Below, piece after piece: positions 1,635 through 58,035 of a DNA stretch of 64,000 nucleotides; the stretch's first letter is position 1; each line of letters begins with the position of its first letter. The DNA comes from Tropicimonas marinistellae (GTDB lineage Bacteria; Pseudomonadota; Alphaproteobacteria; Rhodobacterales; Rhodobacteraceae), in NCBI RefSeq assembly GCF_001509585.1, contig NZ_LNCI01000005.1:62001-126000 (forward strand), given 5' to 3'. The translations under genes were made by a program, and so were the position numbers. The notes beneath the pieces are model-generated. The model did not search any database and was not told the DNA's origin. It saw nothing but the letters and a program-made list of their open reading frames with translations.

Positions 1635-2254
1635 TGGACAATAAGGGGATGGACGCAGTCTTGGAGCAGAACATTGCGGCGGAGGACCGGCTGCGGGCGG
1701 ATCTCTACAATTTCCTCGGCGCGATTCTGTCTGCGCCCCCCGATGAGACGTTGTTGCAGCAAACCGCCGGGTTGACCGGTGAAAGCAGCGAGCTGGGGCA
1801 GGCGATCGACGCGCTGGCGCGGATTGCGAAGGTGACGAAACCCAAGAAAGCCGAGAGCGAATTCGGGCGCCTTTTCATTGGGCTGGGCCGCGGCGAGTTG
1901 CTGCCCTACGCGAGTTACTACCTCACCGGCTTTCTCAACGAAAAGCCGCTGGCGGCGTTGCGCCGGGACATGGTGGCGCGCGGCATGGCACGTTCGGAGA
2001 ACGTGTTCGAGCCCGAAGACGGTATCGCGAGCCTGATGGAAATGATGGGAGCCATGATCGTGGGGCGCTTCGGCAATCCTGCGAACCTGTCAACGCAGAA
2101 AGATTTCTTCAACAAGCATGTCGGGCCCTGGGCCGGGCATTTCTTCACGGATTTGGAGGGTGCGAAGAACTCGGTCTTCTATGCGCCGGTCGGCACGGTC
2201 GGCCGGATCTTCATGGAGATCGAGGCGGAAGCCTTCCGGATGAGCGCGGCGTGA
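1631..2254 (+). CDS. TorD/DmsD-family molecular chaperone for formate dehydrogenase
   Basis: 207 residues, all-helical in character. It contains the TorD-family core E-x-E-F-G-RLFIGLGRGELLPYASYYLTGFL near residues 76-103, and the later HVGPWAGHFFTDLE segment typical of this family. TorD-like proteins bind twin-arginine signal peptides of molybdoenzymes and hold the apoprotein until the cofactor is inserted. Here the client should be FdhA, whose Tat signal is encoded 360 bases downstream. The start overlaps the DUF3306 stop. There is no export signal, as expected for a cytoplasmic chaperone. Confidence 0.88.
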   Translation: MMDNKGMDAVLEQNIAAEDRLRADLYNFLGAILSAPPDETLLQQTAGLTGESSELGQAIDALARIAKVTKPKKAESEFGRLFIGLGRGELLPYASYYLTGFLNEKPLAALRRDMVARGMARSENVFEPEDGIASLMEMMGAMIVGRFGNPANLSTQKDFFNKHVGPWAGHFFTDLEGAKNSVFYAPVGTVGRIFMEIEAEAFRMSAA

Positions 2255-2309
2255 AACCCGCAAGCCCAAGGCGGCGCGCCGCCAAACAACCAAGGGAGGA
2301 GACGTATCC

Positions 2310-2501
2310 ATGACACGGAAAACCGAGGAGACCGCGAGTCGCCGCGATTTCCTGAAACTGGCCGGGACGACCGCGCCAGTGGCCGCCATCGCCGTGGCGG
2401 CGGGCACGACCGGGGCCGAAGCGGCCGAACCCGACCTGTCATTGGAGAAGATGCAGGATACCGCGCATACCCGCGCCTATTACAGCAGCGCCCGGTTCTG
2501 A
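2310..2501 (+). CDS. Formate dehydrogenase region Tat-target protein (FdhX-like)
   Basis: 63 residues with a twin-arginine signal, SRRDFLKLAG at about residues 10-19, then an Ala-rich hydrophobic core ending near AEAAE and a mature tail of only about 25 residues (LSLEKMQDTAHTRAYYSSARF-like). This matches the small Tat-target family found immediately upstream of fdhA in proteobacterial formate dehydrogenase operons. A strong GGGAGGAG Shine-Dalgarno sequence precedes the ATG. The function is unknown. It may be a small periplasmic subunit or an assembly factor exported with FdhA. Confidence 0.88.
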   Translation: MTRKTEETASRRDFLKLAGTTAPVAAIAVAAGTTGAEAAEPDLSLEKMQDTAHTRAYYSSARF

Positions 2502-2617
2502 CCGGACGGTGCCGACCCGGCTACGAGCAACTGGTTGCGTGACGCCCGACCGCCCGTGCCATCAACGATAATCCAAGCGAGCGGGGCAGTGGCCCGAGCA
2601 AGCAAGGGAGTGAAACC

Positions 2618-5515: not shown

Positions 5516-5526
5516 GGAGATAGAGA

Positions 5527-6120
5527 ATGGCAAGAGCGAAATTTCTCTGCGACGCCGAGCGCTGCATCGAGTGCAACGCCTGCGTCACGGCCTGCAAGAA
5601 CGAGCATGAGGTGCCATGGGGCATCAACCGCCGCCGCGTGGTGACCATCCAGGATGGTCAGCCCGGCGAACGGTCGATCTCGGTGGCCTGCATGCATTGC
5701 TCGGATGCGCCGTGTATGGCGGTCTGCCCGGTGGATTGCTTCTACCAGAACGAGGAAGGGGTGGTGCTCCACTCCAAGGACCTCTGCATTGGCTGCGGCT
5801 ATTGCTTCTACGCGTGCCCCTTCGGCGCGCCGCAATATCCGCAGGCGGGCAACTTCGGCTCGCGCGGCAAGATGGACAAATGCACCTTCTGCGCCGGCGG
5901 TCCCGAGGAGACCCATTCCAACGCGGAATTCTCCAAGTACGGCCGCAATCGGATCGCAGAGGGCAAGCTGCCGCTTTGCGCCGAGATGTGCTCGACCAAG
6001 GCGCTGTTGGCGGGCGACGGTGACGTCGTCTCCGCGATCTACCGCGAACGTGTGGTGGCGCGCGGCTTCGGCTCCGGCGCCTGGGGGTGGGGCACCGCCT
6101 ACGACCAGAAGGGCGGCTGA
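5527..6120 (+). CDS. fdhB: Formate dehydrogenase beta subunit, four [4Fe-4S] ferredoxin
   Basis: 197 residues that carry electrons from FdhA to the membrane cytochrome. Sixteen cysteines form four cluster sets: 13/16/19/23, 55/58/63/67, 87/90/93/97 and 119/122/151/155, with the CIGCGYCFYACPFGAPQ block as the best landmark. Unlike E. coli FdnH (about 294 residues) it has no C-terminal membrane helix, so it must be held to the membrane through FdhC. It has no signal peptide and is presumably exported with FdhA by Tat. It starts 11 bases after fdhA with an AAGGAGATAG ribosome binding site. Confidence 0.95.
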   Translation: MARAKFLCDAERCIECNACVTACKNEHEVPWGINRRRVVTIQDGQPGERSISVACMHCSDAPCMAVCPVDCFYQNEEGVVLHSKDLCIGCGYCFYACPFGAPQYPQAGNFGSRGKMDKCTFCAGGPEETHSNAEFSKYGRNRIAEGKLPLCAEMCSTKALLAGDGDVVSAIYRERVVARGFGSGAWGWGTAYDQKGG

Positions 6121-6258
6121 CAGGTTTCGCGGCCATCGGGCTTCAAGTCCCAATGGCCGCGGCCCTGTAACCTCATGAACCGCAAGCCACCGGGGCACCA
6201 AGTCCCGGTGGTTTGGCAAAGGCACATCTAATCCCTTGCAAGGGTCGGGTAAGATACG
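6121..6258 (+). other. Intercistronic hairpins between fdhB and fdhC
   Basis: The 138-base gap inside the operon holds two strong consecutive hairpins. The first pairs CGCGGCCAT (6128-6136) with ATGGCCGCG (6153-6161). The second pairs CCACCGGG (6187-6194) with CCCGGTGG (6204-6211) and can extend outward to 6183-6215 with one G-T pair. Both loops contain CAAGT. A 12-base palindrome CCCTTGCAAGGG follows at 6233-6244, shortly before the fdhC start. No T-run follows, so they are more likely to stabilise or process the mRNA than to end it, which is inference. Confidence 0.6.
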
Positions 6259-7494
6259 ATGAGTAATCGAAATTCCGGGTTCGGCGCATTTCTGGCACTG
6301 ATACTGGTCGTCGTGATCGCCGCGCTTGTGTTTTCGCTGCGCGCGCCCGATCCGGATGGCGTAGACGAGACACAACTCGCTGAAGCTCGGGAAGCAACGG
6401 GCGGTGCGCAGACCCGTGAGGACATCATGGCGCGCCAGCGAGGGCTGAACATCGACGATACGTTCCGCAGCGGAGCGACGGGTGATCCCAACAGCGCAGC
6501 AGCTGCGAACGCGCAACTCGGAACGCTGGGCGGCGTCTCCGATGCCGAGATGTGGCGCGCATTGCGCTACGGATCGGCGAACACCAGCGCGACCTCACGT
6601 GGCCCGGCGGCCGACGTGCTGATCCAGGACGGCGGCATGAGCTGGCTCACGCTCCGCGACGCCCGCGTCGGCAAATGGGGGGGATGGCTCCTCCTCGGCA
6701 TGATCGGTGTGCTGGCCTTCTTCTACCTCACCCGCGGCCGCGTGCCGATCGCCGGCGAAAAAACCGGGCGCAAGGTCCTGCGGTTCGGCAATATCGACCG
6801 GTTTGCCCACTGGATGACCGCCGGATCCTTCATCCTGCTGGCGGTGACCGGATTGATTTCCATGTACGGGCGACCCTACCTGATCGCGGTCATGGGCAAG
6901 GAGGCCCATGCGACACTCGCTTACTGGTCGAAACTCGTCCACAACAACGTGAGTTTCGCCTTCATGCTCGGCGTTCTGCTGATCTTCCTCAAATGGGTGC
7001 GTTTCAATATCCCGAACTGGAACGACGTCAAATGGCTTACGGTCATGGGCGGGCTTTTCGACGATTCCATTCATCCGCCTGCCGGCAAGTTCAACGCCGG
7101 GCAGAAGATCATCTTCTGGTCGGTGATGCTCATGTCGATTGGTGTGGTGGCGACCGGGTTTAGCCTGCTCCTGCCATTCCGCGTCGAGGTGTTCGGCGAT
7201 ATCTTCGCGTGGATCAACGGCCTCGGCGTGTTGTCCTGGTTTGGGATTGCCGACCTTCCCGTTGCGCTCTCCCCGCAAGAAGAAATGCAATATACCCAGC
7301 TCGTCCATGCCGGCTTCGCCTTCCTCTTCATTGCGATGATCATCGGCCACATCTACATCGGCACGCTCGGGATGGAGGGCGCGTTCGATGCCATGGGCAC
7401 CGGATACGTGGAGGAGCAATGGGCACGCGAGCACCATTCGCTCTGGCTCGACGAGGTGAAGGCGCGGGACGGTGCGGCCAGTCCGGCGGAATAG
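6259..7494 (+). CDS. fdhC: Formate dehydrogenase gamma subunit, cytochrome b556
   Basis: 411 residues forming the di-haem quinone-reducing membrane subunit. Helices lie near residues 10-26, 141-157, 186-203, 232-247, 284-304 and 352-368. His184, His228, His350 and His364 have spacings of 44 and 14, close to the haem ligands of E. coli FdnI (39 and 14), so both haems b should be present. Compared with FdnI it has an N-terminal extension of about 130 residues, with one membrane anchor and a poorly structured periplasmic stretch, as in other alphaproteobacterial and epsilonproteobacterial FdhC proteins. Its 3' end overlaps the next gene by 23 bases. Confidence 0.94.
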   Translation: MSNRNSGFGAFLALILVVVIAALVFSLRAPDPDGVDETQLAEAREATGGAQTREDIMARQRGLNIDDTFRSGATGDPNSAAAANAQLGTLGGVSDAEMWRALRYGSANTSATSRGPAADVLIQDGGMSWLTLRDARVGKWGGWLLLGMIGVLAFFYLTRGRVPIAGEKTGRKVLRFGNIDRFAHWMTAGSFILLAVTGLISMYGRPYLIAVMGKEAHATLAYWSKLVHNNVSFAFMLGVLLIFLKWVRFNIPNWNDVKWLTVMGGLFDDSIHPPAGKFNAGQKIIFWSVMLMSIGVVATGFSLLLPFRVEVFGDIFAWINGLGVLSWFGIADLPVALSPQEEMQYTQLVHAGFAFLFIAMIIGHIYIGTLGMEGAFDAMGTGYVEEQWAREHHSLWLDEVKARDGAASPAE

Positions 7495-8770
7495 GCTGTC
7501 CAAGCATGTCGCAGCCTTGGTTGTGACGGTCTGTGCCGGGGGCCTCTCGGCGCAGGAGTTCCAGACGTTGAAGGGGCACGGAGGCCCGATCATGGGAATC
7601 GCGGTCGCGCCCTCCGGCGAAGTCGCGACGGCGAGTTTCGACAATTCGGTCGGTGTCTGGAACGGTGCAGATCCAACCTGGCTGGAGGGGCACGATGCTG
7701 CGGTAACGGCCATAGCATTCGGTCCGAACGGCACGCTCGCGACGGGTGGCGACGACTTTGCCGTGCGGCTGTGGGGCGACGATCCCAAGCTGCTGGGCAG
7801 GCATCTGGGCAAGGTTACGGGCGTCGCGGTTGCGCCCGACGGGCATTCGGTTGCCAGCGGCAGTTGGGACGGAACCATCCTCATCTGGCCGCTCGACGAA
7901 GGCGAACCGCGCGAGCTTCCGGCGCCGGGAGCCGGCGTCAACGATGTCGCGTTCGACCGGAGCGGTGCGCGCCTCTTTGCCAGCACGACGGACGGCGTTC
8001 TGCTGCGCTATGATCCCGACGGCAGCGCGCCGGTGGCGTTGGCGCGGCACGGTTTTGGAATCAATTGCCTTGTTGTCGGAGACGGGTGGGTCGCTTATGG
8101 CGCCGTGGACGGCGGAACGCGGGTGATCGACGCGGAGACCGGGGCGCAGATTGCCGATTTCACGCTTGAGCGCCGCCCGATCCTCGCAATGGTCCATCAT
8201 GCTGAGTCGGGTCAGATCGCGGTCGGCGATGGCCACGGTTACATCATGATCCTCGACACGGCGGACTGGCGGATCGCGCGGGATTTCCGCGCGACGCGGC
8301 AAGGGCCTGTCTGGGCGCTCGCCTATTCGTCGGACGGTTCTGTGGTCCACGCCGGCGGGCTGGACGATGTGGTGTATTCCTGGCCTGTCGCTCTGCTCGA
8401 CGAATTCGATCCGGCAATGGGACAACAACGCAGCTTCCTGCAAGCGCCGGCGAGCATGCCCAATGGCGAACGCCAGTTCATGCGCAAATGCTCGATCTGT
8501 CATGCGCTGGATCCGGGACCGTCCCGGAAGGCCGGACCGACGTTGCACGGGTTGTTCGGGCGGGCCGCTGGAACGGTGCCGGAGTACCCCTATTCGTCGA
8601 CCCTGCTTGGCTCCGATATCGTCTGGACCGAGGAAACGGTAAACCAGCTGTTCGACGATGGACCCGACCACTACATTCCGGGATCGAAAATGCCGATGCA
8701 GGTCATTGCCGGCGACGGCGACAGGGCCGACCTGATCGACTATCTTAAGACCGCGACAAGGGGAGACTGA
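7472..8770 (+). CDS. WD40 repeat protein fused to a class I cytochrome c
   Basis: 432 residues with a GTG start inside the end of fdhC. A Sec signal (RRNRLSKHVAALVV to about LSAQEF) leads into a beta-propeller of about six WD40 blades, e.g. GHGGPIMGIAV, GHDAAVTAIAF and HLGKVTGVAV, ending near residue 310. A C-terminal cytochrome c domain has haem motif CSICH at 340-344 and likely axial methionine in GSKMPMQ. A Ca-type WD40-c fusion is expected to be periplasmic, soluble or membrane-associated. Its place in the operon suggests it takes electrons from formate oxidation or senses that flow. The partner is unknown, and no enzyme motif is seen. Confidence 0.85.
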   Translation: MRPVRRNRLSKHVAALVVTVCAGGLSAQEFQTLKGHGGPIMGIAVAPSGEVATASFDNSVGVWNGADPTWLEGHDAAVTAIAFGPNGTLATGGDDFAVRLWGDDPKLLGRHLGKVTGVAVAPDGHSVASGSWDGTILIWPLDEGEPRELPAPGAGVNDVAFDRSGARLFASTTDGVLLRYDPDGSAPVALARHGFGINCLVVGDGWVAYGAVDGGTRVIDAETGAQIADFTLERRPILAMVHHAESGQIAVGDGHGYIMILDTADWRIARDFRATRQGPVWALAYSSDGSVVHAGGLDDVVYSWPVALLDEFDPAMGQQRSFLQAPASMPNGERQFMRKCSICHALDPGPSRKAGPTLHGLFGRAAGTVPEYPYSSTLLGSDIVWTEETVNQLFDDGPDHYIPGSKMPMQVIAGDGDRADLIDYLKTATRGD

Positions 8771-10687: not shown

Positions 10688-11053
10688 CTATTCGCAGGGA
10701 AAGCTCTCCTGCAACGTGGCGAGCAGGGCTTCGTTCGCAAGCAACTTGGTGCGCTGGCTGTAGGAGCCGTGGACCCACCGCATGAAAGCCCAGCGAACCT
10801 CGTCGGCCGTGTTTAGATCCGGTGCGCAGATGCCGAGTTCTGCCTTGGCGTCGATCACCTTCAGGGCACCGACGAACCCCATGATGTACTGTTCGCATTC
10901 GGCCTCGGCCGCAGCGCCCCAGCGGGCGTCATTGTCGGCCTCCTGGCAGGGTGAGAGGAGATCGGCCGCGGAATAGCCGGCACCTTGTGCCAGTGCGGAG
11001 GATCCAGCCACGACGGTGGCCGCAAGAGAAGCGATGAGAAGAACGGATCGCAT
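10688..11053 (-). CDS. Secreted Rap1a/Tai-family small protein
   Basis: 121 residues. The start at 11053 gives a clean signal peptide (MRSVLLIASLAATVVAGSSALAQ); the longer frame upstream is not protein-like. The mature part has the Rap1a/Tai pattern: four cysteines in the SPCQEAD, AECEQYIMGF, GICAPD and ESFPCE segments, and a conserved RWAFMRWV-H helix. The family was named from T6SS immunity proteins, but most members in other contexts have no known function. It follows the 12-haem cytochrome gene in the same direction with 74 bases between them, so the two may share a transcript. A terminator follows. A role with the cytochrome is possible but unproven. Confidence 0.72.
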   Translation of the reverse strand: MRSVLLIASLAATVVAGSSALAQGAGYSAADLLSPCQEADNDARWGAAAEAECEQYIMGFVGALKVIDAKAELGICAPDLNTADEVRWAFMRWVHGSYSQRTKLLANEALLATLQESFPCE

Positions 11054-11093
11054 GGATATGGCTCCTTGTCTCGGGGCTGTCTGGAGAGCGGAG

Positions 11094-11119
11094 GCCCCGG
11101 CCGTGTGTGCGGCCGGGGC
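11094..11119 (-). terminator. Strong hairpin between cytochrome and Rap1a/Tai-like genes
   Basis: GCCCCGGCCG (11094-11103) pairs perfectly with CGGCCGGGGC (11110-11119) across a six-base loop, nine bases after the cytochrome stop. No T-run follows on the minus strand, so it may be an attenuator or an mRNA 3'-end stabiliser that lowers expression of the downstream gene. Confidence 0.55.
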
Positions 11120-11127
11120 GTCCGGTG

Positions 11128-13485
11128 TCAGTTGCGGCCGGTTTCGGCCAGGGAGTGGATCGCCTGATCCATGACATCCTGGTGTTCTTCGTTGTTCACG
11201 AAGGCAGGCGTGTTGACCTTCTCCCAGAGCGCCTCGTCGGTCATGTTCTGGTGACAGCCCATGCACAGGCCGGTGCGCTCCATCTTCTCGCGCATCTCCT
11301 GCGGCAGCGGGCCGGTCAGCGGCCAGTGCGACCCGACCGTCACGAGCTGTTCACCGTCTTCGGTCACGATCCGGGAAAGATCGTGGTCGAGGCTCGGGAC
11401 CGGCTGCGACTGAAGCTGGTGCTGCTGCGGGATGGTTTCGCCGAAGGCGGTTTCCAGATCCACTACGAAGCCATCGTCATAGCCGGCCATGAAGCGGCCC
11501 CCCATGATCCCGTAGCCAAGCGCCTTGGGATTGTTGTGGCAGCTTTCGCAGCTACGTGCCTCGCGGCCGGCGGTGTGCGGCTGCACGGCGGCATGGTCCA
11601 GGCCCTTGGTGCCGCCGGCATCCGGGGTCATCCAGGTCTCGTTATGGGCGACCGTGTTGCCGTCCTTGTCGATGACCGTGGTGATGACCTGGCAGCCCGG
11701 CATCAGCGGAGATACGCGACCCTCGCCATTGATGCCCAGCGTCGGCTCTTCCCACCGCAGGTAGGAGCGGGTTTCGGAGACCTTGCCAGCCGAGGTCAGG
11801 CCGTTGGTTCCCAGAACGTTGTCCGCCGTCAGGCCGTTCGGTTCACGCGCATTGGCGTTCGCGATCCAGTCGACGTCAGTCTTGCCCTCGGAATAATCCA
11901 CGGTGATGTGGCAGCCATAGCACTGCGGTGCCCAGTCGGCGTGGCAGGCGTAGCATTCCATGCTCTCCATGTGCTTGCCGACAGACATCATGGCGACCTG
12001 GGCGTTCTGGTTCTTCCAGGTTCCATCGGTGGCGATTTGCTTCAGCACCGGGATCTCGAAATCGAGACCAGAGGCCGAGTGCAGCATCACCTTGTCACCG
12101 TCCTTGACGACGTTGCCGAACGGGTTGCCGCGCGCGGTCAACAGGAAGCCATCTTTCGCCTCGTAGTCGGTGGCGAACATGATGGTCTCGTCGGCTGCCT
12201 CCTCGGACAGGCCGCGCGGCGTGTCGGCGAGTTCTGTCTGGAACTCCTCGCCGTAACCCAGCGGCAGTTCCCACGGGTACTTGCTGACGGTGCCGTGGCA
12301 ATCCTCGCACTCGATTTCCACCTGCGCGAGCGTGGTGCCGGGAAGGTTACCGTCGCCGTGCATGTCGATCGAGGTATGGCAATCCTGGCAGAGCATGCCG
12401 CCCTCCGGGTTGCCGTCGCGCGATTGCACGGAGTGATGCAGGTCGTCCTTGATGTAGAGATAGTTCTTGGTGTGCAGCTTGGGCTGCTTGCCACCTTTCT
12501 CGTCATAGGGCGAGCCGTAGGGGAACTCCATGATGCCCTGATAACTCACGCCGATCCGCTTGCCGCGGTTGTGGCAGGAGTTGCAGGTTTCCGATGGGAT
12601 GCCGGAGTATTCCAGATCGCCGTGCTTCACGACGGATTTCCGGGTCGCCTGCAATTGGTGGGTCAGGAGTTTGCCGGGCTGATCCTTGGAAATCGTCGGG
12701 TCGCCGCCCTCGTAGAAGCCTTCGTTCGAATAGGGAACGTGGCAGGAGGAGCAGCCGGCGCCGCGGAAATCGCCGCGCTTCTCGCGGCCGGTAACGCCCA
12801 CGTGGCAGCGCTGACACTGCTGGCGGCTGTAGGTGATGCCGGCGAGGTTCGGGTGTTCGGAAATCGCGTCAACATCGACTTCCGGCACCTGCTCCATGCT
12901 GTCGGGCATCTGGTCGGGGTGCGCCTCGGAGAAAGCGACCATGTATTCCTTGTAGGCCTCGGTGCCGACGCTCGGCACATTGCCGTCCTCGTCCACCAGG
13001 TCGTAGTTGCCGTAGACCGAGCGGTGGGTATCGATCACACCCCAGGACCACAGGTTGCCCTGCAATTTACCGGCTTCGGTGTTCATCAGCGACTTGATCT
13101 GACGGTCGGCATAGCCCTCGTGGCAGCCGGACTGGCCGCACGTCTTGTCGGCAATCCAAACGGCGCCGGGATCGGGGAAGAACATGTCCGGCCCGCCGTT
13201 CTCGATCATGTCGGGGTGCGCGCCAGCGTGGGCAAGTTCGGCGGTCGTGCCGCCGACGGTGCCGCCGTGGCACATCGTGCAGCCCTCGGGGTCGTTGTAG
13301 TCTTCACCGAAGGCCATGATGGTGTCCATCATCACACCTTCGGTGAATCGCTCGATCCCCTCGTGGCAAGACAGACAGCCCTTTTCGGCCGCAAGCTCTT
13401 CCGAGACCTGCATTGGTGTCTCTTGGGCCGAAGCTAGCGTTGCCGCGCCCAAGAGCAACGACAGAACGAGAAATAGGCGTCTCAC
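11128..13485 (-). CDS. Twelve-haem periplasmic cytochrome c
   Basis: 785 residues from a GTG at 13485-13483, preceded by GGGAGAG. The start gives a typical signal peptide (VRRLFLVLSL to ASA|QE at 20). Eleven CXXCH motifs are present (CLSCH 37-41, CTMCH 69-73, then CQRCH, CSSCH, CNSCH, CQDCH, CEDCH, CYACH, CYGCH, CESCH and CMGCH), plus one CX4CH (CGQSGCH, 116-122), giving twelve predicted haems. There is no membrane anchor. I do not recognise a named enzyme family. It could be an electron carrier or a terminal reductase. The divergent FNR-type regulator and CcmFHI genes suggest oxygen-controlled expression and dedicated haem attachment. Confidence 0.9.
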   Translation of the reverse strand: MRRLFLVLSLLLGAATLASAQETPMQVSEELAAEKGCLSCHEGIERFTEGVMMDTIMAFGEDYNDPEGCTMCHGGTVGGTTAELAHAGAHPDMIENGGPDMFFPDPGAVWIADKTCGQSGCHEGYADRQIKSLMNTEAGKLQGNLWSWGVIDTHRSVYGNYDLVDEDGNVPSVGTEAYKEYMVAFSEAHPDQMPDSMEQVPEVDVDAISEHPNLAGITYSRQQCQRCHVGVTGREKRGDFRGAGCSSCHVPYSNEGFYEGGDPTISKDQPGKLLTHQLQATRKSVVKHGDLEYSGIPSETCNSCHNRGKRIGVSYQGIMEFPYGSPYDEKGGKQPKLHTKNYLYIKDDLHHSVQSRDGNPEGGMLCQDCHTSIDMHGDGNLPGTTLAQVEIECEDCHGTVSKYPWELPLGYGEEFQTELADTPRGLSEEAADETIMFATDYEAKDGFLLTARGNPFGNVVKDGDKVMLHSASGLDFEIPVLKQIATDGTWKNQNAQVAMMSVGKHMESMECYACHADWAPQCYGCHITVDYSEGKTDVDWIANANAREPNGLTADNVLGTNGLTSAGKVSETRSYLRWEEPTLGINGEGRVSPLMPGCQVITTVIDKDGNTVAHNETWMTPDAGGTKGLDHAAVQPHTAGREARSCESCHNNPKALGYGIMGGRFMAGYDDGFVVDLETAFGETIPQQHQLQSQPVPSLDHDLSRIVTEDGEQLVTVGSHWPLTGPLPQEMREKMERTGLCMGCHQNMTDEALWEKVNTPAFVNNEEHQDVMDQAIHSLAETGRN

Positions 13486-13553
13486 TGCGTGCTCTCCCTG
13501 AAAAACGGAATTCGATTCCGGGTCAGGGTATGTGCGACGGCGGACCCGCCGCC

Positions 13554-13567
13554 CTGACATTTGTCAG
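13554..13567. promoter_or_regulatory. Perfect inverted repeat CTGACA-TT-TGTCAG
   Basis: A 14-base dyad with six-base arms, 69 bases upstream of the cytochrome start and 125-138 bases upstream of the preferred regulator start. Symmetry and position suit an operator for a dimeric regulator. It is not an FNR or Dnr consensus (those read TTGAT/TTGTC outward-in), so the protein that binds it, if any, is unknown. Confidence 0.45.
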
Positions 13568-13612
13568 AAAACCCTCGTTTCAAAACATGTACTTGCGATA
13601 CGTATTCCGGGC

Positions 13613-13626
13613 TTGATCTGGCGCAA
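13613..13626. promoter_or_regulatory. Candidate FNR box TTGATCTGGCGCAA
   Basis: It matches TTGAT-N4-ATCAA at eight of ten defined positions (TTGAT-CTGG-CGCAA). It lies between the divergent cytochrome and an FNR-type regulator whose recognition helix carries the E--SR residues used by FNR to read TTGAT. Autoregulation and control of the cytochrome operon are plausible. Confidence 0.55.
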
Positions 13627-13691
13627 AGACAGTGCGCGCCCACCTGTGGATGTTGCCGCAAACCTTACAAACCCAGCGGGAACAGCCAGGC

Positions 13692-14471
13692 ATGCAGCGA
13701 TCAAAGACCGAGGCCCTTAAGGACCATGCGTTGTCCTGTATCGCTTGCAAATCAAGGCTATGCGCATTTGCGCGGGCCGCCCAAGACAGCGTCTCGCCCC
13801 GGATATTCGAGATCGCTCGCGGCGATCGCCTCGAATGCCTGAGTGGAAATTGTCTCAAGTTCTGGATCATTATCCGGGGCACTGCGGCAATCTGCACGGT
13901 GCTCGAAGACGGTCGGCGGCAGATCGTGTCGCTGCCGGGGGCGAGCGATGTGGTCTGCGGTCTGCTTGCCGACGGAGGCAATCCGCACTGGCTGGAGGCG
14001 CTGGATACCTGCGAGGTGTGCGAGATCGACTTCACGCCCTGTGCGGCCGAACTCGCACATGACCCGACCTTCATGCATGCGATGATGGATCTGTTGCACG
14101 CCCAGCTTGTGCGAACGTCGCAGCATCTGATCACGCTCGGCCGGCTGGACAGCACCGAACGCCTTATCTTCTTCCTGGCGCAGCTTTCGTTTCACCCATC
14201 CCAGGCGGACGGCGCCACCGCGCCGGTACAGCTGCCCATGTCGCGCGAGGATATCGCCGACTACCTTGGCCTCAACGCGGAGACTGTCAGCCGAATCCTC
14301 ACCAAACTTCGCAAGAGCGGGTTGGTGAAGTTCCTCAACCGGTCGGAGTTCTACGTGCCGGACATGGCGGCGCTGCGCCGCCGGCTCCCGCTGCCGCTGT
14401 TGGGCGAAGACGCCGCCGTGATCGGGCAGTTTACCGGGAAGGATGCCGAGAGCGAGAGGGCACAAGCATGA
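13692..14471 (+). CDS. FNR-type [4Fe-4S] Crp-family transcription regulator
   Basis: 259 residues from the ATG at 13692 (GTG at 13632 and ATG at 13650 are alternatives). The N-terminus has Cys16-X2-Cys19-X4-Cys24, and Cys110 in CEVCEID aligns with FNR Cys122 in MVCEIPF, so all four FNR cluster ligands have counterparts. A cNMP-type beta-roll covers about 35-120, a dimerisation helix about 122-155, and a winged HTH at 183-212 contains ETVSRIL, with the Glu-Ser-Arg pattern of FNR. Extra cysteines at 49, 54, 68, 89, 107 and 117 are unusual. It should sense oxygen or NO and is coupled to ccmF by an ATGA overlap. Confidence 0.85.
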   Translation: MQRSKTEALKDHALSCIACKSRLCAFARAAQDSVSPRIFEIARGDRLECLSGNCLKFWIIIRGTAAICTVLEDGRRQIVSLPGASDVVCGLLADGGNPHWLEALDTCEVCEIDFTPCAAELAHDPTFMHAMMDLLHAQLVRTSQHLITLGRLDSTERLIFFLAQLSFHPSQADGATAPVQLPMSREDIADYLGLNAETVSRILTKLRKSGLVKFLNRSEFYVPDMAALRRRLPLPLLGEDAAVIGQFTGKDAESERAQA

Positions 14472-16447
14472 TCACCGAGTTCGGCCACTTTGCCCTTTGG
14501 ATGGCGCTTGCGGCGGCATTGGTTCAATCCGTTGTTCCGCTCTGGGGGGTACGTAATGCGTCCGCTGCGGGGATGCGTGTGGCCGATACAGCTGCGCAGA
14601 TCCAGTTTCTGGCTGTTGCGGTAGCCTTCGGGGCGCTTGTCCGCGCCTATGTCGTGTCGGATTTCTCGCTGGAGACGGTGGCTCTCAACTCCCATTCCAG
14701 CAAGCCGATGCTCTACAAGGTCACCGGCGTCTGGGCCAATCACGAAGGGTCAATGCTGCTGTGGGTGTTGATGCTGGCGCTGTTCGGGGTGCTGATCTCG
14801 CTCTTCGGGCGGATGATTCCGGTCGCCATGAGGGCGACGGTTCTCGCCGTGCAGGCGGTCGTCGGTGTTGGCTTCTACCTGTTCATACTGTTGACCTCGA
14901 ACCCATTCATCCGGTTGGACAACCCGCCGCTTGACGGCCGCGGAATGAACCCGCTGCTGCAGGATCCGGGCGTCGCCTTTCATCCGCCACTGCTTTACCT
15001 GGGCTATGTTGGCTTCTCGACGGCCTTCGCTTTCGCACTGGCCGCCCTCATCACGGGCCGGGTCGACCCGGCCTGGGCGCGCTGGATGCGGCCGTGGGTG
15101 CTGATCGCGTGGTCTGGGCTCACCGCCGGCATTGGCTTGGGCTCCTGGTGGGCCTATTACGAGCTAGGCTGGGGGGGATTCTGGTTCTGGGACCCGGTGG
15201 AAAACGCTTCCTTCATGCCATGGCTGATCGGCACCGCACTGCTGCATTCGGCCATCGTGGTGGAGAAGCGAAACGCACTGCTGCAATGGACCATCCTGCT
15301 TGCGATCCTGACCTTCTCGCTCAGCCTGATCGGCACGTTCCTCGTGCGTTCCGGTATCCTTTCGTCGGTCCATGCTTTCGCCACCGATCCGGCGCGTGGC
15401 GTTTTCATCCTCGTCCTGCTCTGCCTCTACATTGGCGTGGCACTAATGCTCTTTGCCTGGCGGGCAGGGGAGTTGCGCGAAGGTGGTGTCTTCGCGCTCT
15501 GGTCGCGGGAGAGCGGCCTGCTGGTCAACAACGTGCTGCTCTCGGCAGCCACGGGCGTCGTTTTCGTGGGCACGCTCTACCCGCTGGTGTTGGAGTTGCT
15601 GACCGGGGACAAGATCACCGTCGGCGCCCCCTATTTCAACCAGACGTTCCTCCCGCTCTTCGGCGCAACAATGCTGGCTGCGGGCGTAGGGCCGTTTCTA
15701 TCCTGGAAACGGGCGCGGCCCGCTGTGGTGCTGCGACGGGCGGCAGTTACGATGACCGTGAGTGTCGCGCTGACCATCGGGCTCGCCCTGACACTGACGC
15801 AGGCCGATCCGGCTGGTCTGTTCGGCGCATTTGTCGCGATTTTCCTCGCTACGGCGACGTTGCAGGATCTGGCTCTGCGCGCTGGAGTGCCCGGCGTGCG
15901 CGCCAGTGTCGCTCTGCGTCGGCTGCTGGGGCTGCCGCGGTCCGCCTGGGGGCTCTATCTCGGTCACACCGGGCTTGCCCTTGCCGCCGCTGGCGTTGTT
16001 GCCGTCTCCGTCTGGAAGGCGGAGGAGATCCGCTCGGTCGCACCCGGCACGGAAATGGCGGTGGGGCCCTATGCCTTCACGCTTGCCGAGATCGGTCAGG
16101 CGCAAGGACCGAACTACCAGACAACAATCGCCACGATCGAGGTGACGCGCGCGGGGCAGGCGGTTGCGACGTTGCAGCCGGAGCGGCGCTGGTACCCCGT
16201 CGAGGGGCGCCCGACGACGGAAGCGGGCATCCGTTCGCTCTGGCACGGGGATCTCTACGCGGTGTTGGGCGACCCAGACGGCACTGGGCGGCACGTCGTG
16301 CGCTACTACTACAACCCCGGCGTGCCGTGGATGTGGGCCGGTGCGGTGCTGATCGCATGCTCCGCGCTCATTTCGCTCACCGACAGACGGCTGCGTATCG
16401 GTGCACCGTCTCGGCGACGCGCGCCCACGATGCAACCGGCGGAATAG
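14468..16447 (+). CDS. ccmF: Cytochrome c haem lyase subunit CcmF
   Basis: 659 residues, a polytopic membrane protein with about 14-15 helices. The WWD haem-handling signature is clear near residues 225-250 (WWAYYELGWGGFWFWDPVENASF pattern), and conserved periplasmic histidines are present. With CcmH and CcmI it attaches haem from holo-CcmE to apocytochrome c in the periplasm. It starts inside the stop of the FNR-type regulator, an unusual neighbour for ccmF, and is followed four bases later by ccmH. No ccmE lies beside it. Order and context also resemble nrfE-nrfF-nrfG, dedicated haem lyases for special cytochromes. Confidence 0.95.
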   Translation: MITEFGHFALWMALAAALVQSVVPLWGVRNASAAGMRVADTAAQIQFLAVAVAFGALVRAYVVSDFSLETVALNSHSSKPMLYKVTGVWANHEGSMLLWVLMLALFGVLISLFGRMIPVAMRATVLAVQAVVGVGFYLFILLTSNPFIRLDNPPLDGRGMNPLLQDPGVAFHPPLLYLGYVGFSTAFAFALAALITGRVDPAWARWMRPWVLIAWSGLTAGIGLGSWWAYYELGWGGFWFWDPVENASFMPWLIGTALLHSAIVVEKRNALLQWTILLAILTFSLSLIGTFLVRSGILSSVHAFATDPARGVFILVLLCLYIGVALMLFAWRAGELREGGVFALWSRESGLLVNNVLLSAATGVVFVGTLYPLVLELLTGDKITVGAPYFNQTFLPLFGATMLAAGVGPFLSWKRARPAVVLRRAAVTMTVSVALTIGLALTLTQADPAGLFGAFVAIFLATATLQDLALRAGVPGVRASVALRRLLGLPRSAWGLYLGHTGLALAAAGVVAVSVWKAEEIRSVAPGTEMAVGPYAFTLAEIGQAQGPNYQTTIATIEVTRAGQAVATLQPERRWYPVEGRPTTEAGIRSLWHGDLYAVLGDPDGTGRHVVRYYYNPGVPWMWAGAVLIACSALISLTDRRLRIGAPSRRRAPTMQPAE

Positions 16448-16451
16448 GACA

Positions 16452-16976
16452 ATGGCGATGCGTGAAATACCCGATCCTCGCTCCCTCTTCCGGTCCGTTT
16501 GGCATGTATTGTGCGGCACATTCCTCCCCTGCCTGCTTGCGGTGGTGCTGACCGGAACCACGCCGCCGGCCCAGGCGCTCGACGCGGAAGAGATGTTCGA
16601 AGATCCGGCGCAGGAGGCTCGTGCCCGCGATATCGGCCGCCAGCTTCGCTGCCTTGTCTGCCAGAACGAGTCGATCTTCGATTCCAATGCCGGTCTTGCC
16701 CGCGATTTGCGCGTGGTCGTGCGGGAACGGATGGCGGAAGGGGACAGCGACGCCGAGGTCATCGCCTTCGTGTCCGACCGCTACGGCGACTACGTGCTGC
16801 TGAAACCACCTGTGGAGGGCCATACGCTCGTGCTCTGGCTCGCGCCGGTGCTGTTCCTCGGGATCGGCGGGATCGGGTTGCTGACCTACCACCGAAGCCG
16901 GGAGCGGCGCGTTGTTCCCGAACTGAGCGCGGCGGACAGGGCTGAGGCGCAGCACCTCCTGAACGGAGAACAATGA
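16452..16976 (+). CDS. ccmH: Cytochrome c biogenesis protein CcmH (thiol reductase subunit)
   Basis: 174 residues from the ATG at 16452, chosen because the longer frame to 16401 overlaps ccmF without similarity. A signal anchor at about residues 18-36 precedes the periplasmic three-helix domain with the LRCLVCQNES motif (Cys67, Cys70) that keeps apocytochrome cysteines reduced. A second hydrophobic helix at about 118-137 (LVLWLAPVLFLGIGGIG) anchors the C-terminus. The stop overlaps the ccmI start. Confidence 0.94.
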   Translation: MAMREIPDPRSLFRSVWHVLCGTFLPCLLAVVLTGTTPPAQALDAEEMFEDPAQEARARDIGRQLRCLVCQNESIFDSNAGLARDLRVVVRERMAEGDSDAEVIAFVSDRYGDYVLLKPPVEGHTLVLWLAPVLFLGIGGIGLLTYHRSRERRVVPELSAADRAEAQHLLNGEQ

Positions 16977-18406
16977 TGGCGTTCTGGATACTCATTGTCA
17001 TTTCCGCCGCGTTTGCAGGCCTTTGGGTCGCGCGCCCGTTCCTGAAGGGCGGTACGATTGAAATGGATGATAGCGACGGCGCGATATCCGTCTATCGAGA
17101 CCAACTGGAGGAAGTCGAGCGCGACCTGTCGGCTGGCTTGATCTCACCGGAAGAGCGGGACCAGGCGCGCCGGGAAATCGAGCGTCGGGCGTTGCTCGCG
17201 GCGCGGAACATGGGCGGCGGCTTTTCCGTGTCGCAAAGGTCGGTGGCCGGAGCGGGCGTGCTGGCCGGTGTCGCGGCACTCATCGCGCTCGTAGGCTATG
17301 GTTGGAGCGGCATGCCCGCCGCCGAAGATCAGCCGCTCGCCGCGCGCCGCACGGATATTCTGGAACAACGCGCAGCGGCCGGAGACATGACCAGCCGGAT
17401 CGCCTTGTTGATCGACAAGACGTCGGAGAACCCCCAATCCTTCGAAGATTGGTGGACGCTCGCCCAATCCTACGCCGCCATTGGTGACCATGCATCGTCG
17501 GTCGAGGCTTACCGCAAGGCGGCGGAACTCGATGGTGACAGCCCTGGCGTGCTGTCGGCTTATGCAGAGGCAATGACGCTGGCCAATGGCAACAAGGTGC
17601 CCGATGCCGCGCGGCTGATATTCGAGCAGGTCCTGAACCGCGGTCCGGACGTGCGCGCCCGCTATTACATCGCGCTCTCAAAGGCGCAGGCCCAGCAGTT
17701 CGAGGCAGCGCTGGAGGATTGGGCCGCACTCGCCCGGGACAGCCAACCCGACGCGCCCTGGATGCCGCTGGTGCGCCGTGACATGGTCAACATGGCGCGA
17801 TTTGCCAAGGCGGACCTCGCGACCTACCTTCCCGATGCCACGCCGGAGGAAATCGCGGCCGCTGGCGGTCAAACGGTTTCGGTGGAAACCGCGGCAGAAT
17901 CCGTGGCGCGACGGGAGTCTCTCGAGACGGCACTGGCCGGCGATCCGTTCGACTACAAGGGGTGGATCGAGCTTGCCGGTCTCCATGTGGCTGCCGGGGA
18001 GGACGACGCGGCAGCAGAGGCGCTGGCATCAGCGCGAGAGGCCTATGCCGCCGCCCCCTTCGTGCAGACCAAGATCGACGAGGCGGCACGCAGGCTTGGC
18101 CTCGACCTGATCGCGCAACCCGGCAGCGTCTCCGGCCCGTCTCCGGAGGATATCGCGGCAGCGGCCGATCTCAGCGAGGACGAGCGCGATGACATGATCG
18201 ACGGAATGGTGGCCGGGCTCGCAGCAAAGCTGGAGGAGGTGCCGGACAATCCCGATGGCTGGATCATGCTGGTCCGCTCCTACGCGGTAATCGGCGCGCA
18301 GGACAAGGCACGCGCCGCGTTCGAAGAGGCGACCGCGCATTTCGCCGAGGATCCGACCGTTCTCTCCCGGTTGCGGCAGGAAGCTGCAACCGTACTGACG
18401 GAGTAA
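16973..18406 (+). CDS. ccmI: Cytochrome c biogenesis protein CcmI, TPR apocytochrome chaperone
   Basis: 477 residues with two N-terminal transmembrane segments (about 3-18 and 84-102) around a cytoplasmic leucine-zipper-like loop, then a long periplasmic region with TPR units (e.g. near residues 150-270 and 320-470, the latter containing NPDGWIMLVRSYAVIGAQDKA-type repeats). CcmI binds the C-terminal helix of apocytochromes and delivers them to CcmF-CcmH. It is last in the operon, ends 15 bases from the convergent selD end, and has no obvious strong terminator between them. Confidence 0.92.
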   Translation: MMAFWILIVISAAFAGLWVARPFLKGGTIEMDDSDGAISVYRDQLEEVERDLSAGLISPEERDQARREIERRALLAARNMGGGFSVSQRSVAGAGVLAGVAALIALVGYGWSGMPAAEDQPLAARRTDILEQRAAAGDMTSRIALLIDKTSENPQSFEDWWTLAQSYAAIGDHASSVEAYRKAAELDGDSPGVLSAYAEAMTLANGNKVPDAARLIFEQVLNRGPDVRARYYIALSKAQAQQFEAALEDWAALARDSQPDAPWMPLVRRDMVNMARFAKADLATYLPDATPEEIAAAGGQTVSVETAAESVARRESLETALAGDPFDYKGWIELAGLHVAAGEDDAAAEALASAREAYAAAPFVQTKIDEAARRLGLDLIAQPGSVSGPSPEDIAAAADLSEDERDDMIDGMVAGLAAKLEEVPDNPDGWIMLVRSYAVIGAQDKARAAFEEATAHFAEDPTVLSRLRQEAATVLTE

Positions 18407-55197: not shown

Positions 55198-55818
55198 ATG
55201 GAGTTGCGTGTCGAGGATCTTGCCGTCGTGCGGGGCGGAATGCGGGTGCTGGAGGGCGTGTGCTTCCAGGTGCCTGCCGGTCGTGCGCTGGTTCTGCGGG
55301 GGCCGAACGGAATCGGCAAGACGACGCTTCTGCGCACGCTCGCGGGGCTGCAACTCTCCGATGGCGGAGAGATGACACCGGGGCCAGAGGCGATGGCCTA
55401 TGCCTCCCATGCCGATGGCAACAAGGCGACGCTGAGTGTCGAGGAGAACCTGACGTTCTGGGCGCGGCTTCACGGTATGCGGGAGGTCGAGGCGGCGTTG
55501 TCCGGGTTCAACCTCGCGTCCCTGCGGGAGCGGCCTGCGGGGAGCCTTTCTGCCGGGCAGAAACGGCGCCTCGGGCTGGCGCGGATGGCGGTGACCGGAC
55601 GCTCCATCTGGCTTCTGGACGAGCCCACGGTTTCGCTCGACGCCGATAGCGTGGCGCTCTTCGCGGCCTCTGTCCGGCAGCATCTTGCCGCCGGTGGCAG
55701 CGCCGTGATCGCGACGCACATCGACCTTGGGCTGGAGGGGGCCGAAGTGCTGAACCTTGCCCCCTACAAGGCCGCGCCGCCGGAGCAGGACCACGATTTT
55801 CACGAGGCGTTCCTGTGA
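55198..55818 (+). CDS. ccmA: Haem exporter ATP-binding protein CcmA
   Basis: 206 residues. Walker A GPNGIGKTT at about 37-45, signature LSAGQKRRLGLARM near 117 and Walker B IWLLDEPTVSLD near 137. It powers release of holo-CcmE from CcmC in the CcmABCD complex. Its stop overlaps the ccmB start. First of ccmABCDG. Confidence 0.96.
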   Translation: MELRVEDLAVVRGGMRVLEGVCFQVPAGRALVLRGPNGIGKTTLLRTLAGLQLSDGGEMTPGPEAMAYASHADGNKATLSVEENLTFWARLHGMREVEAALSGFNLASLRERPAGSLSAGQKRRLGLARMAVTGRSIWLLDEPTVSLDADSVALFAASVRQHLAAGGSAVIATHIDLGLEGAEVLNLAPYKAAPPEQDHDFHEAFL

Positions 55819-56471
55819 TCGGGCTGTTGAAACGCGACCTTGCGCTCTCGGTGCGGGCGGGCGGCGGTTTCGGGCTGGCGCTGGCGTTCTTCCTGATCGT
55901 GGTGACGCTGACGCCCTTTGCGGTCGGGCCGGAACCGGCAAAGCTGGCGACCATCGCGGCAGGTATCCTGTGGCTCGGGGCGTTGCTCTCCTGCCTGCTG
56001 TCGCTGGATCGCATCCTGGCGCTCGATTACGAGGACGGTGCGCTGGAACTGCTGGCCACCGCGCCGATCCCGATGGAGGGGGTGGCGGCGGTCAAGGCCT
56101 TCGCGCATTGGCTGACCACCGGCCTGCCGCTGACGCTTGCGGCCCCGGCGCTCGGGGTGCTGCTCAACCTGCCGGCGGGCGGGTATTTCTGGCTCACCCT
56201 GTCGCTTGCTATCGGCACGCCGGCGCTGTCGGTGGTCGGCACATTCGGCGCGGCGTTGACCGTCGGGCTCAAGCGCGGCGGGTTGCTGCTGTCGCTCATC
56301 GTGTTGCCGCTCTACGTGCCGACGCTGATCTTCGGGGCGGAGGTGGCGCGGCGCGGCGCGGAGGGCATGGCCCTGTCGTCGCCGCTGGCGCTGCTGGCGG
56401 GGATCACGCTTGCCACGGTCGCGCTGCTGCCCTTCGCGTCGGCTGCGGCAATCCGCATCAACCTGCGGTGA
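55815..56471 (+). CDS. ccmB: Haem exporter permease CcmB
   Basis: 218 residues with six membrane helices. Conserved EDGALELLATAPIPMEG loop near 74-90 and SLAIGTPALSVVGTFGAALTVGLKRGG in the middle. It starts in an ATG overlapping the ccmA end and is followed by a 55-base gap before ccmC. Confidence 0.95.
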   Translation: MIGLLKRDLALSVRAGGGFGLALAFFLIVVTLTPFAVGPEPAKLATIAAGILWLGALLSCLLSLDRILALDYEDGALELLATAPIPMEGVAAVKAFAHWLTTGLPLTLAAPALGVLLNLPAGGYFWLTLSLAIGTPALSVVGTFGAALTVGLKRGGLLLSLIVLPLYVPTLIFGAEVARRGAEGMALSSPLALLAGITLATVALLPFASAAAIRINLR

Positions 56472-56526
56472 AATCCTGCATGTAGGCTCGCTTGAGCAGA
56501 TCGAATCGAAAGACTAGGTAGCCCCC

Positions 56527-57255
56527 ATGTCACTCTGGGAATATGCGAACCCCCGCAAGTTCATGGCCCTGTCGGGCGCACTGCTGCCATTCGCGGTGGC
56601 GGGTACCGCGGCGGCGCTCGCAATCGGGTTGATCTGGGGGTACTTCTTCACGCCCGACGATTACCGGCAGGGGGCCACGGTCAAGATCATCTACATCCAT
56701 GTGCCGGCGGCCATGGTGGCGATCAACTGTTGGCTGATGATGCTGATCGCCTCGCTGGTGTGGCTCATCCGGCGGCACCACGTGAGCGCGCTCGCGGCGA
56801 AGGCGGCGGCCCCGATCGGTGCAACGATGACGGTGATCGCCCTAGCGACCGGCGCAATCTGGGGGCAACCGATGTGGGGCACCTGGTGGGCCTGGGACCC
56901 GCGGCTGACCTCGTTCCTGATCCTCTTCCTGTTCTACCTCGGGTACATGGCGCTGTGGGCCGCGGTGGAGAACCCGGACACGGCGGCGGAGCTGACCTCG
57001 GTTCTGTGCATCGTGGGATCGGTCTTCGCGGTACTCAGCCGCTACGCGCTGGTGTTCTGGAACCAGGGGCTGCATCAGGGCGCGTCGCTGTCGCTCGACA
57101 AGGAAGAGAACGTTTCGGACGTGTTCTATTGGCCGCTGCTGATCTCGATTGCCGGGTTCGTCGGGCTCTTCGTGACGCTGCTGCTGCTGCGTACGCGCAC
57201 CGAGGTGCGGGCGCGCCGCCTGAAGGCGTTGCTTGCGCGGGAGCGCATGGCATGA
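56527..57255 (+). CDS. ccmC: Haem-handling membrane protein CcmC
   Basis: 242 residues, six helices. The tryptophan-rich WWD loop MWGTWWAWDPRLTS (near 118-131) lies between the two conserved periplasmic histidines (KIIYIHVPAAM and the later LHQGASLSL). It loads haem onto CcmE. Its stop overlaps the ccmD start (ATGA). Confidence 0.96.
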   Translation: MSLWEYANPRKFMALSGALLPFAVAGTAAALAIGLIWGYFFTPDDYRQGATVKIIYIHVPAAMVAINCWLMMLIASLVWLIRRHHVSALAAKAAAPIGATMTVIALATGAIWGQPMWGTWWAWDPRLTSFLILFLFYLGYMALWAAVENPDTAAELTSVLCIVGSVFAVLSRYALVFWNQGLHQGASLSLDKEENVSDVFYWPLLISIAGFVGLFVTLLLLRTRTEVRARRLKALLARERMA

Positions 57256-57494
57256 TGCCGGACCTGGGAAAATACACCGTCGAAGTGCTGTCGGCCTATG
57301 CCGTGTCGCTGGGGCTGATTGCCGTGCTGGTGATCGTGTCGATCCGGCAGTCATCGCGGACACGTGCGTTGCTGCATGACGTGGAAGCGGCAAGACTGGC
57401 CGCAGCTACCGCCGCCGCCGCAGGCACCGACGCAGGCACTGACGCGGCAAACGGCGCTTCGGCGGAACCAAAGGAGACTGCGCAGAATGGCTAA
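57252..57494 (+). CDS. ccmD: Haem exporter small subunit CcmD
   Basis: 80 residues; ATG at 57252 overlaps the ccmC stop, with a second ATG directly after. MPDLGKYTVEVLSAYAVSLGLIAVLVI gives the conserved tyrosine-containing start and single membrane helix at about 17-33, and the following RQSSRTRALLHDVE is the usual cytoplasmic positive segment. It has a longer Ala/Thr-rich tail than E. coli CcmD (69). It stabilises CcmC-CcmE. The 3' end overlaps ccmG by eight bases. Confidence 0.92.
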   Translation: MMPDLGKYTVEVLSAYAVSLGLIAVLVIVSIRQSSRTRALLHDVEAARLAAATAAAAGTDAGTDAANGASAEPKETAQNG

Positions 57495-58035
57495 GGTGTC
57501 GCCCCTGATGATCCTACCGCCGGCGATCTTCCTCGCGGTGGCCGGGCTGTTTTACGCGGGGATGCTTCGGGAAGACCCGGATTCCCTGCCGACGGCGCTC
57601 AAGGGAAAACCGGCGCCGGCGATGCAGCTGGAGCCCTTTGCGGACCGCCCGTTGCTCGACGATGCGGCGCTTCGGAATGGCGAGGTGACGCTGGTCAACT
57701 TCTGGGCCAGCTGGTGCGCCCCGTGCCGCGCCGAGCATCCTCAGCTCATGCAATTGTCAGAGGAGGGGGTCCAGGTTCACGGTGTGAACTACAAGGATAC
57801 CGAGCCGAAGGCGCTTGGCTTCCTCGCCGGGCTGGGCGACCCATACGTTCTGTCGGGGGCCGATCCGGACGGGCGCACCGCCATCGACTGGGGCGTCTAC
57901 GGCAGCCCGGAGACCTTCGTGCTCGCCCCCGACGGAACCGTCGTGCTGCGGTTCGCCGGGCCGATCACGCCGTCGATCCTGGAAAACAAGATCCGGCCCG
58001 CGATGGCGGAGGCCGCCGCGATCGGTGGGAGTTGA
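57487..58035 (+). CDS. ccmG: Thioredoxin-like cytochrome c biogenesis protein CcmG/DsbE
   Basis: 182 residues from the ATG at 57487 inside the end of ccmD; the open frame upstream to 57364 is spurious. One membrane anchor at about 8-25, then a periplasmic thioredoxin fold with WCAPC (Cys77, Cys80) and the acidic GVNYKD site typical of CcmG. It reduces apocytochrome or CcmH disulfides. Last of ccmABCDG. Confidence 0.95.
   Translation: MAKVSPLMILPPAIFLAVAGLFYAGMLREDPDSLPTALKGKPAPAMQLEPFADRPLLDDAALRNGEVTLVNFWASWCAPCRAEHPQLMQLSEEGVQVHGVNYKDTEPKALGFLAGLGDPYVLSGADPDGRTAIDWGVYGSPETFVLAPDGTVVLRFAGPITPSILENKIRPAMAEAAAIGGS

Follow-up and report, generated by a model that had tools for sequence, protein, structure and literature searches.

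A CcmFHI haem lyase set linked to a 12-haem cytochrome in Tropicimonas marinistellae: probable low-oxygen capacity rather than unusual haem chemistry

Introduction

NrfEFG of Escherichia coli (PMC12285233), SirEFG of Shewanella (PMC6976685) and CcmF2 of anaerobic methanotrophic (ANME) archaea (PMC9012536) are precedents for haem lyases dedicated to one cytochrome. Such lyases have so far been explained by odd haem attachment motifs, as for NrfA and SirA, or by very large cytochromes with stretched motifs, as for ANME. Here we analyse a stretch of 64,000 nucleotides (the window) of the alphaproteobacterium Tropicimonas marinistellae (contig NZ_LNCI01000005.1, positions 62,001 to 126,000), in which a ccmF-ccmH-ccmI set follows a gene for an FNR-family regulator and is divergent from the gene of a 12-haem c-type cytochrome. 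With a probability of roughly two in three, and as judged from sequence and genome comparison, this set would be a low-oxygen-induced, co-inherited haem lyase which provides capacity and mainly serves the 12-haem cytochrome.

Like NrfEFG, the set consists of CcmF, CcmH and CcmI paralogues which adjoin one multihaem cytochrome without haem-delivery genes of their own, but NrfA has a CXXCK site (PMC12285233), whereas the sites here are mostly plain, NrfA finds no match and CcmF clusters with alphaproteobacterial CcmF in a tree. With Shewanella SirEFG(H), which serves the sulfite reductase SirA, it shares a second CcmF and a CcmI-type chaperone in a cytochrome cluster and a (here predicted) respiratory role, while SirA (PMC6976685) carries a long atypical motif and is under CRP control via SirR, in contrast to the overlapping FNR-type regulator gene and mostly plain motifs found here. 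The ANME CcmF2 beside ANME MHC-B is similar in being a divergent CcmF clade, inferred from genomes, which always adjoins one multihaem cytochrome, but it is archaeal, has no linked CcmH/CcmI set in the passages of PMC9012536 covered and accompanies S-layer cytochromes of very large size whose motifs are stretched, unlike the bacterial CcmFHI set described here, which comes with a regulator and a cytochrome some 800 residues long.

Two marks of a secondary System I lyase are present, an extra CcmF/CcmH/CcmI set besides the housekeeping one and conserved linkage to one cytochrome, while the atypical partner motif, true for NrfA, SirA and MHC-B, is the exception here, a CX4CH site occurring in 7 of the 33 loci with the complete block. 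The set differs from its precedents by mostly plain motifs, an overlapping regulator gene and a promoter with two sites, and the listings of the literature searches contained no paper on a cytochrome-regulator-ccmFHI module. With its own regulator, mostly plain motifs and relatives in which a cytochrome of this family goes with a single CcmF, the block allows chemistry to be told apart from capacity and regulation as grounds for duplicating a haem-attachment machine, and is a natural test of why private machines of this kind persist with ordinary-looking haem sites.

Results and discussion

The gene order was checked by coordinates and family matches. The cytochrome gene and the gene of a Rap1a-like protein lie on the minus strand, divergent from the regulator, ccmF, ccmH and ccmI genes on the plus strand, with the following features:

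10688..11053, minus strand: Rap1a-like small secreted protein (PF18602, 1.6e-12)
11128..13485, minus strand (open reading frame to 13560): 12-haem c-type cytochrome, GTG start and signal peptide assigned by eye
13553..13566, no strand: palindrome CTGACATTTGTCAG, located about 68 nt upstream of the cytochrome start
13613..13626, no strand: FNR-type box TTGATCTGGCGCAA, two mismatches
13692..14471, plus strand: FNR-family regulator, CX2CX4C plus a fourth Cys
14468..16447, plus strand: ccmF of the cytochrome-linked clade (TIGR00353 above cut-off; tree; four His)
16452..16976, plus strand, start inferred: ccmH (PF03918, 2e-48; LRCxxC motif)
16973..18406, plus strand: ccmI with N-terminal domain and TPR domain (TIGR03142 above cut-off; PF23914)
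55198..58035, plus strand: shared ccmA, ccmB, ccmC, ccmD and ccmG (CcmC by family search, the others by eye)

A four-base overlap joins the 3' end of the regulator gene to the start of ccmF (14468), and another joins ccmH to ccmI. An earlier prediction made from the letters of the window (the original prediction) had described this arrangement with its regulator-ccmF overlap, the position of ccmABCDG about 37 kb away from ccmFHI and the lack of a ccmE beside ccmF, all of which is borne out; the only CcmE found is encoded on a separate contig, behind an argC-like gene.

The original prediction had also proposed to look for a second ccmF/ccmH/ccmI set and ccmE. In the source genome (5.42 Mb, 99.98% complete; nearest named relatives, judged by the cytochrome, in Tropicimonas and Aliiruegeria) two further ccmF-ccmH pairs were found, and the tally of three CcmF, three CcmH, three CcmI (window, C4 and C23) and one CcmE shows that the ccmFHI set of the window is not the only one. 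The C3 pair ccmF-ccmH, which adjoins an enoyl-CoA hydratase-like gene, is taken as the housekeeping copy because its CcmF groups with CcmF of the same genus and the same family. The C4 set ccmF-ccmG-ccmH-ccmI (L006:5589-9806) is a third, separate copy, whose CcmF groups with one same-genus copy. Copper-type genes, DUF411-like ones among them, lie near C4 (names assigned by eye), and the C4 CcmF scores 716 bits; eight extra CcmF copies in seven other family genomes score near-equally at 733.5-734.4 bits and look recently spread.

A contig scan found 146 relatives of the cytochrome, the best 80 of which were kept, giving 79 loci, the window and 78 others (L048 and L068, without a called cytochrome, are outside the 79). 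Locus genes were called by codon usage, with approximate starts and several neighbour names assigned by eye or cluster membership; many loci stem from metagenome-assembled genomes (MAGs), where absence is weak evidence, and L016 and L045 end at contig ends. The regulator gene adjoins the cytochrome gene in 41 of the 79 loci and the Rap1a-like gene does so in 51, and the complete cytochrome-regulator-ccmF-(ccmH)-ccmI block is present in 33, with the Rap gene on the other side in every one. Conservation of the block as a unit, a check named with the original prediction, is found amid mostly different flanks, with 28 distinct left neighbours in the 33 loci and 28 distinct right neighbours in the 32 having one.

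The linked CcmF form a distinct clade against housekeeping CcmF, as a tree suggested with the original prediction reveals: among 70 rows, 33 linked CcmF are separated from 29 unlinked ones with a branch support of 100, eight rows being in no group. The trees were made by a quick method, with E. coli CcmF and NrfE flagged as long branches. The cytochrome tree (77 rows) places 34 rows labelled linked (L016 counted) within a clade of 37 with a support of 99; the three unlinked rows inside it are L045, which ends at a contig end, L036 and L043. Among 32 blocks (L058 is left out as its cytochrome call is truncated), pairwise distances of regulator, CcmF and CcmI correlate with rho of 0.65-0.78, the cytochrome correlates with each of them at 0.43-0.53 and with Rap at 0.52, and none of 999 permutations matched any of these values, in which correlation from shared species descent is still included.

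The CcmF tree bears on the explanation that an nrfEFG-like set, left over from a nitrite reductase system, was relocated here, a kinship with NrfEFG which we consider hardly credible. The window CcmF passes the NrfE-named model PRK10369 with 473.6 bits against a cut-off of 394, but so do the other two CcmF of the genome (442 and 471 bits), so that the model does not single out the linked copy; E. coli NrfE reaches 1130 bits. In the tree a support of 100 places the linked CcmF with those of Alphaproteobacteria and apart from CcmF and NrfE of E. coli, NrfE being one long branch of unsure exact place, and NrfA had no match in the genome (PF02335); on these grounds the kinship is disfavoured. The window CcmF also lies above the cut-off of TIGR00353, with a CcmF/NrfE family score of 639.6 bits vs 569, and TIGR03145 is passed neither by it nor by E. 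coli NrfE itself.

Co-occurrence across genomes ties the set to the cytochrome. The cytochrome was found in seven of 60 genomes (the source genome and 59 relatives), each time with a CcmF within a few kilobases, and a single CcmF is encoded by each of the three same-genus genomes that lack the cytochrome. Among 248 family genomes, the source genome included, a linked-type CcmF (at least 72% identity) is encoded by all seven which have the cytochrome and by only one of the 241 which do not, and the best non-linked CcmF among the matches listed has 56% identity. A search of 385 class genomes gave five hits at the cut-off, two of them linked-type (the source genome and G241) and three at 57-58%, of which the one in G587 lies inside a complete ccmA-I operon, the one in G533 in a run of ccmC-I genes with no adjacent ccmAB, and the one in G470 matches the L062 copy by position and identity. 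In a further sample of 34 genomes reached through chosen loci, two or three CcmF are present in all 13 full-block genomes; the genome samples overlap in part, two of these 13 being, by coordinates, genomes of an earlier sample.

The divergent promoter was scanned in the 42 loci with a local regulator, covering the regulator-cytochrome stretch plus 60 bases on each side, with the rest of the same loci as background. The FNR box TTGATN4ATCAA occurs with at most one mismatch at 27 positions where 0.66 were expected, and with at most two, the number in the window site, in 40 of the 42 loci, while an FNR-box search of the whole window alone was not significant (15 found vs 9.8 expected). A second dyad, CTGAY-N4-RTCAG, has 33 exact occurrences in the 79 regions vs 0.24 expected, a count which is not blind, as examples were already known when the pattern was set, and it is present in 33 of the 42 loci with a local regulator vs one of the 37 without. 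In the source genome CTGAC-N4-GTCAG is found at eight places (reversed control, two), and the copy at the block promoter is the only intergenic one by our gene calls, which are doubtful at one or two of the other seven. As TGA-N6-TCA is common to both palindromes, both are putative CRP/FNR-family sites. Upstream of C3 ccmF, C4 ccmF, ccmA and argC-ccmE (stretches of 270-370 nt; 350 nt for the shared ccmABCDG genes), no TTGATN4ATCAA with up to two mismatches was found.

The window regulator possesses an N-terminal CX2CX4C, a fourth Cys and an E..SR recognition helix, which we take to be the cysteine cluster and the DNA contacts, respectively. The fourth Cys is kept in 38 of the 42 local regulators and the E, S and R in 39, 42 and 42. 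The NCBIfam models for FnrL, FixK and Fnr give at most 77 bits vs cut-offs of 228 to 300. By its residues this FNR-family regulator may sense oxygen through an iron-sulfur cluster.

As one cytochrome lineage and one promoter design track the set, a low-oxygen capacity lyase is favoured, and we infer both induction of the block at low oxygen and a preference of the set for the 12-haem cytochrome. In the proposed sequence of events a drop in oxygen would let the FNR-type regulator and/or a global FNR act via the two sites of the divergent promoter. One side would yield the cytochrome and its Rap1a-like partner, and the opposite side the regulator together with CcmF-CcmH-CcmI as a second complex for haem ligation. 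This complex would take haem from the shared CcmABCDE pathway and attach it at the 12 sites of the apocytochrome, which CcmI would present. Capacity and timing for a haem-hungry protein, rather than the handling of an unusual site, would then be what the additional set supplies.

An unusual site does exist in the window cytochrome, whose 12 CXnCH sites are 11 CX2CH and one CX4CH (CGQSGCH), and the original prediction had considered it as the reason for the set. A need for chemically special attachment would place the set beside NrfEFG with CXXCK or SirEFG with the long SirA motif, and known dedicated lyases accompany odd motifs (PMC6976685). However, CX4CH is present in 7 of the 33 full-block loci, 25 have 12 plain CX2CH sites (the one remaining locus is a truncated call) and 5 of the 46 other cytochromes carry CX4CH without the block, so that CX4CH was rejected as the reason; special chemistry is very improbable on these tests, which address motif patterns and have the structural environment of normal motifs outside their scope. 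From the specialised anaerobic lyase of the original prediction, the separate set, the conserved unit, the distinct CcmF clade and the position behind an FNR-type box remain, while its CX4CH rationale does not. Two of the conditions named as refuting it, a single ccmFHI set in the genome and an unconserved neighbourhood, do not apply.

Several observations weigh against a lyase that serves the 12-haem cytochrome in particular. The four haem-handling His of CcmF, at positions which we presume, are identical in 33 of 33 linked and 31 of 31 other CcmF, so that no altered chemistry is visible. The relatives G016 and G020 have two CcmF each without the cytochrome, and another family genome without it in a genome search, G231, has an intact linked-type ccmFHI (CcmF 77%), with regulator and Rap gene absent from the 18 kb read around it. 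Conversely, 21 of the cytochrome genomes sampled lack the block, and of these 16 have one CcmF, four have two and one has none; the set is therefore not strictly required, and the general Ccm system can presumably serve the cytochrome. In L039 and L063, two of the 16, the single CcmF is part of an operon around the cytochrome. L036 and L043, inside the cytochrome clade, are without the block and have one CcmF per genome. Congruence between the cytochrome and CcmF trees is incomplete, L023 for example grouping with Roseibium in the latter and with Shimia abyssi in the former, and Rap distances correlate weakly with those of regulator, CcmF and CcmI (rho 0.23-0.28, matched in 4 to 15 of 999 permutations). 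The regulator evidence is uneven as well: the N-terminal CX2C...C pattern is present in 27 of the 42 regulators, the window included, and four lack the fourth Cys, so some of the local regulators may not be iron-sulfur sensors.

These points feed the main rival, a second general-purpose lyase induced at low oxygen which boosts all c-type cytochromes, with the 12-haem cytochrome as its largest customer and co-regulated neighbour. The orphan set in G231, the cytochrome genomes with a single CcmF, the unchanged catalytic His and the poorer agreement of CcmF distances with those of the cytochrome than with those of the regulator are all in its favour, but a booster should spread independently of the cytochrome, and the linked CcmF is in seven of seven cytochrome genomes and in one of 241 others. 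We consider such a booster unlikely. The word dedicated, in its strict sense, is weakened by the orphan ccmFHI in one relative and the single CcmF in 16 of 21 sampled block-free cytochrome genomes. At L135:8355-12228 an orphan linked-type ccmFHI is found without cytochrome, regulator or Rap nearby; an orphan set of this kind is a natural test of service to other cytochromes.

The reading as a low-oxygen capacity lyase mainly for the 12-haem cytochrome can be extended to a module that answers load and not chemistry. A private regulator would read the single-promoter CTGAC-N4-GTCAG beside the global FNR box and switch on cytochrome and CcmFHI together; a housekeeping-type ccmFGH set would have come to lie next to the cytochrome, with L062 as a stage still containing ccmG; and the unit would have spread through Alphaproteobacteria, with CcmF and CcmH becoming fused in Kiloniellales/Rhodovibrionaceae-type genomes. 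Taken jointly, these steps are a tentative picture, possible rather than probable. The linked set of L062 runs regulator-ccmF-ccmG-ccmH up to the contig end, with a full ccm operon elsewhere in the genome, and its CcmF joins the linked rows of the tree (support 99). In five loci ccmF and ccmH are a single open frame with the CcmH RCxxC motif inside. These in-frame fusions of 802 or 813 residues belong to L031, L032, L033, L053 and L054, from Kiloniellales/Rhodovibrionaceae-type genomes, and the phrases searched in the literature gave no paper on natural CcmF-CcmH fusions.

Other arrangements couple the cytochrome to ccm genes directly. In two Rhodospirillales MAGs (L039:6978-17834 and L063:1902-13153) a complete ccm operon contains the cytochrome and Rap genes, flanked by ccmC on one side and ccmD on the other. 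A gammaproteobacterial MAG has the two genes in divergent orientation to ccmB-C-E-F-H-I (some names by eye).

The 12-haem protein itself is strongly conserved, apparently uncharacterised and ranges from Alphaproteobacteria to Chloroflexota. Twelve sites are present in 73 of 75 long family members (window counted in), together with 11 further His outside the motifs at 95% conservation and a single non-motif Cys, Cys623, which is invariant in a 62-row alignment. With 11 non-motif His for 12 haems, one haem may lack a His partner and is a candidate active site. Like Geobacter ExtM the cytochrome has 12 haems; the ExtM model matches residues 227-684 with 225 bits vs a cut-off of 800, and no ext-type cluster is in the window gene list (compared with PMC5877670). 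Judged by this partial match the cytochrome is a distant relative of ExtM. Among solved structures a single-sequence search returned three unrelated chains (E 0.62-0.77) and a profile search one chain (0.04), none of them a useful relative, and the cytochrome had no match in a plasmid collection. In two gammaproteobacterial loci a NapC/NirT-type cytochrome gene lies 3' (by family search in one of the two), which suggests the quinol pool as electron source; the protein would then be a periplasmic oxidoreductase fed from this pool.

The Rap1a-like protein keeps Cys36, Cys53, Cys76 and Cys120 in at least 95% of 32 block copies and is a likely partner of the cytochrome. A TPR lipoprotein, possibly a stand-in for the CcmI chaperone, neighbours the cytochrome in 18 of the 79 loci, mostly in Chloroflexota. 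The lipoprotein (cluster 7; L055, L060, L067, L073 and other loci) is found in Chloroflexota and some gammaproteobacteria. The cytochrome of L046, on a contig labelled Dehalococcoidia, groups with those of Kiloniellaceae and Rhodospirillaceae, and this contig is likely misbinned or transferred.

Beside the block, window positions 532-8770 hold an FDH3-type formate dehydrogenase cluster (DUF3305-like, TorD-like, alpha, beta and gamma), followed by a gene for a WD40 protein whose C-terminal domain is a cytochrome c; no tRNA genes were found in positions 1-25000 of the window. As parts of a conserved module, selD and the formate dehydrogenase cluster were rejected because the flanks differ in most other block loci. 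The formate dehydrogenase gamma and WD40 genes are also near the block in two Aliiruegeria (same-genus) loci, L011 and L012.

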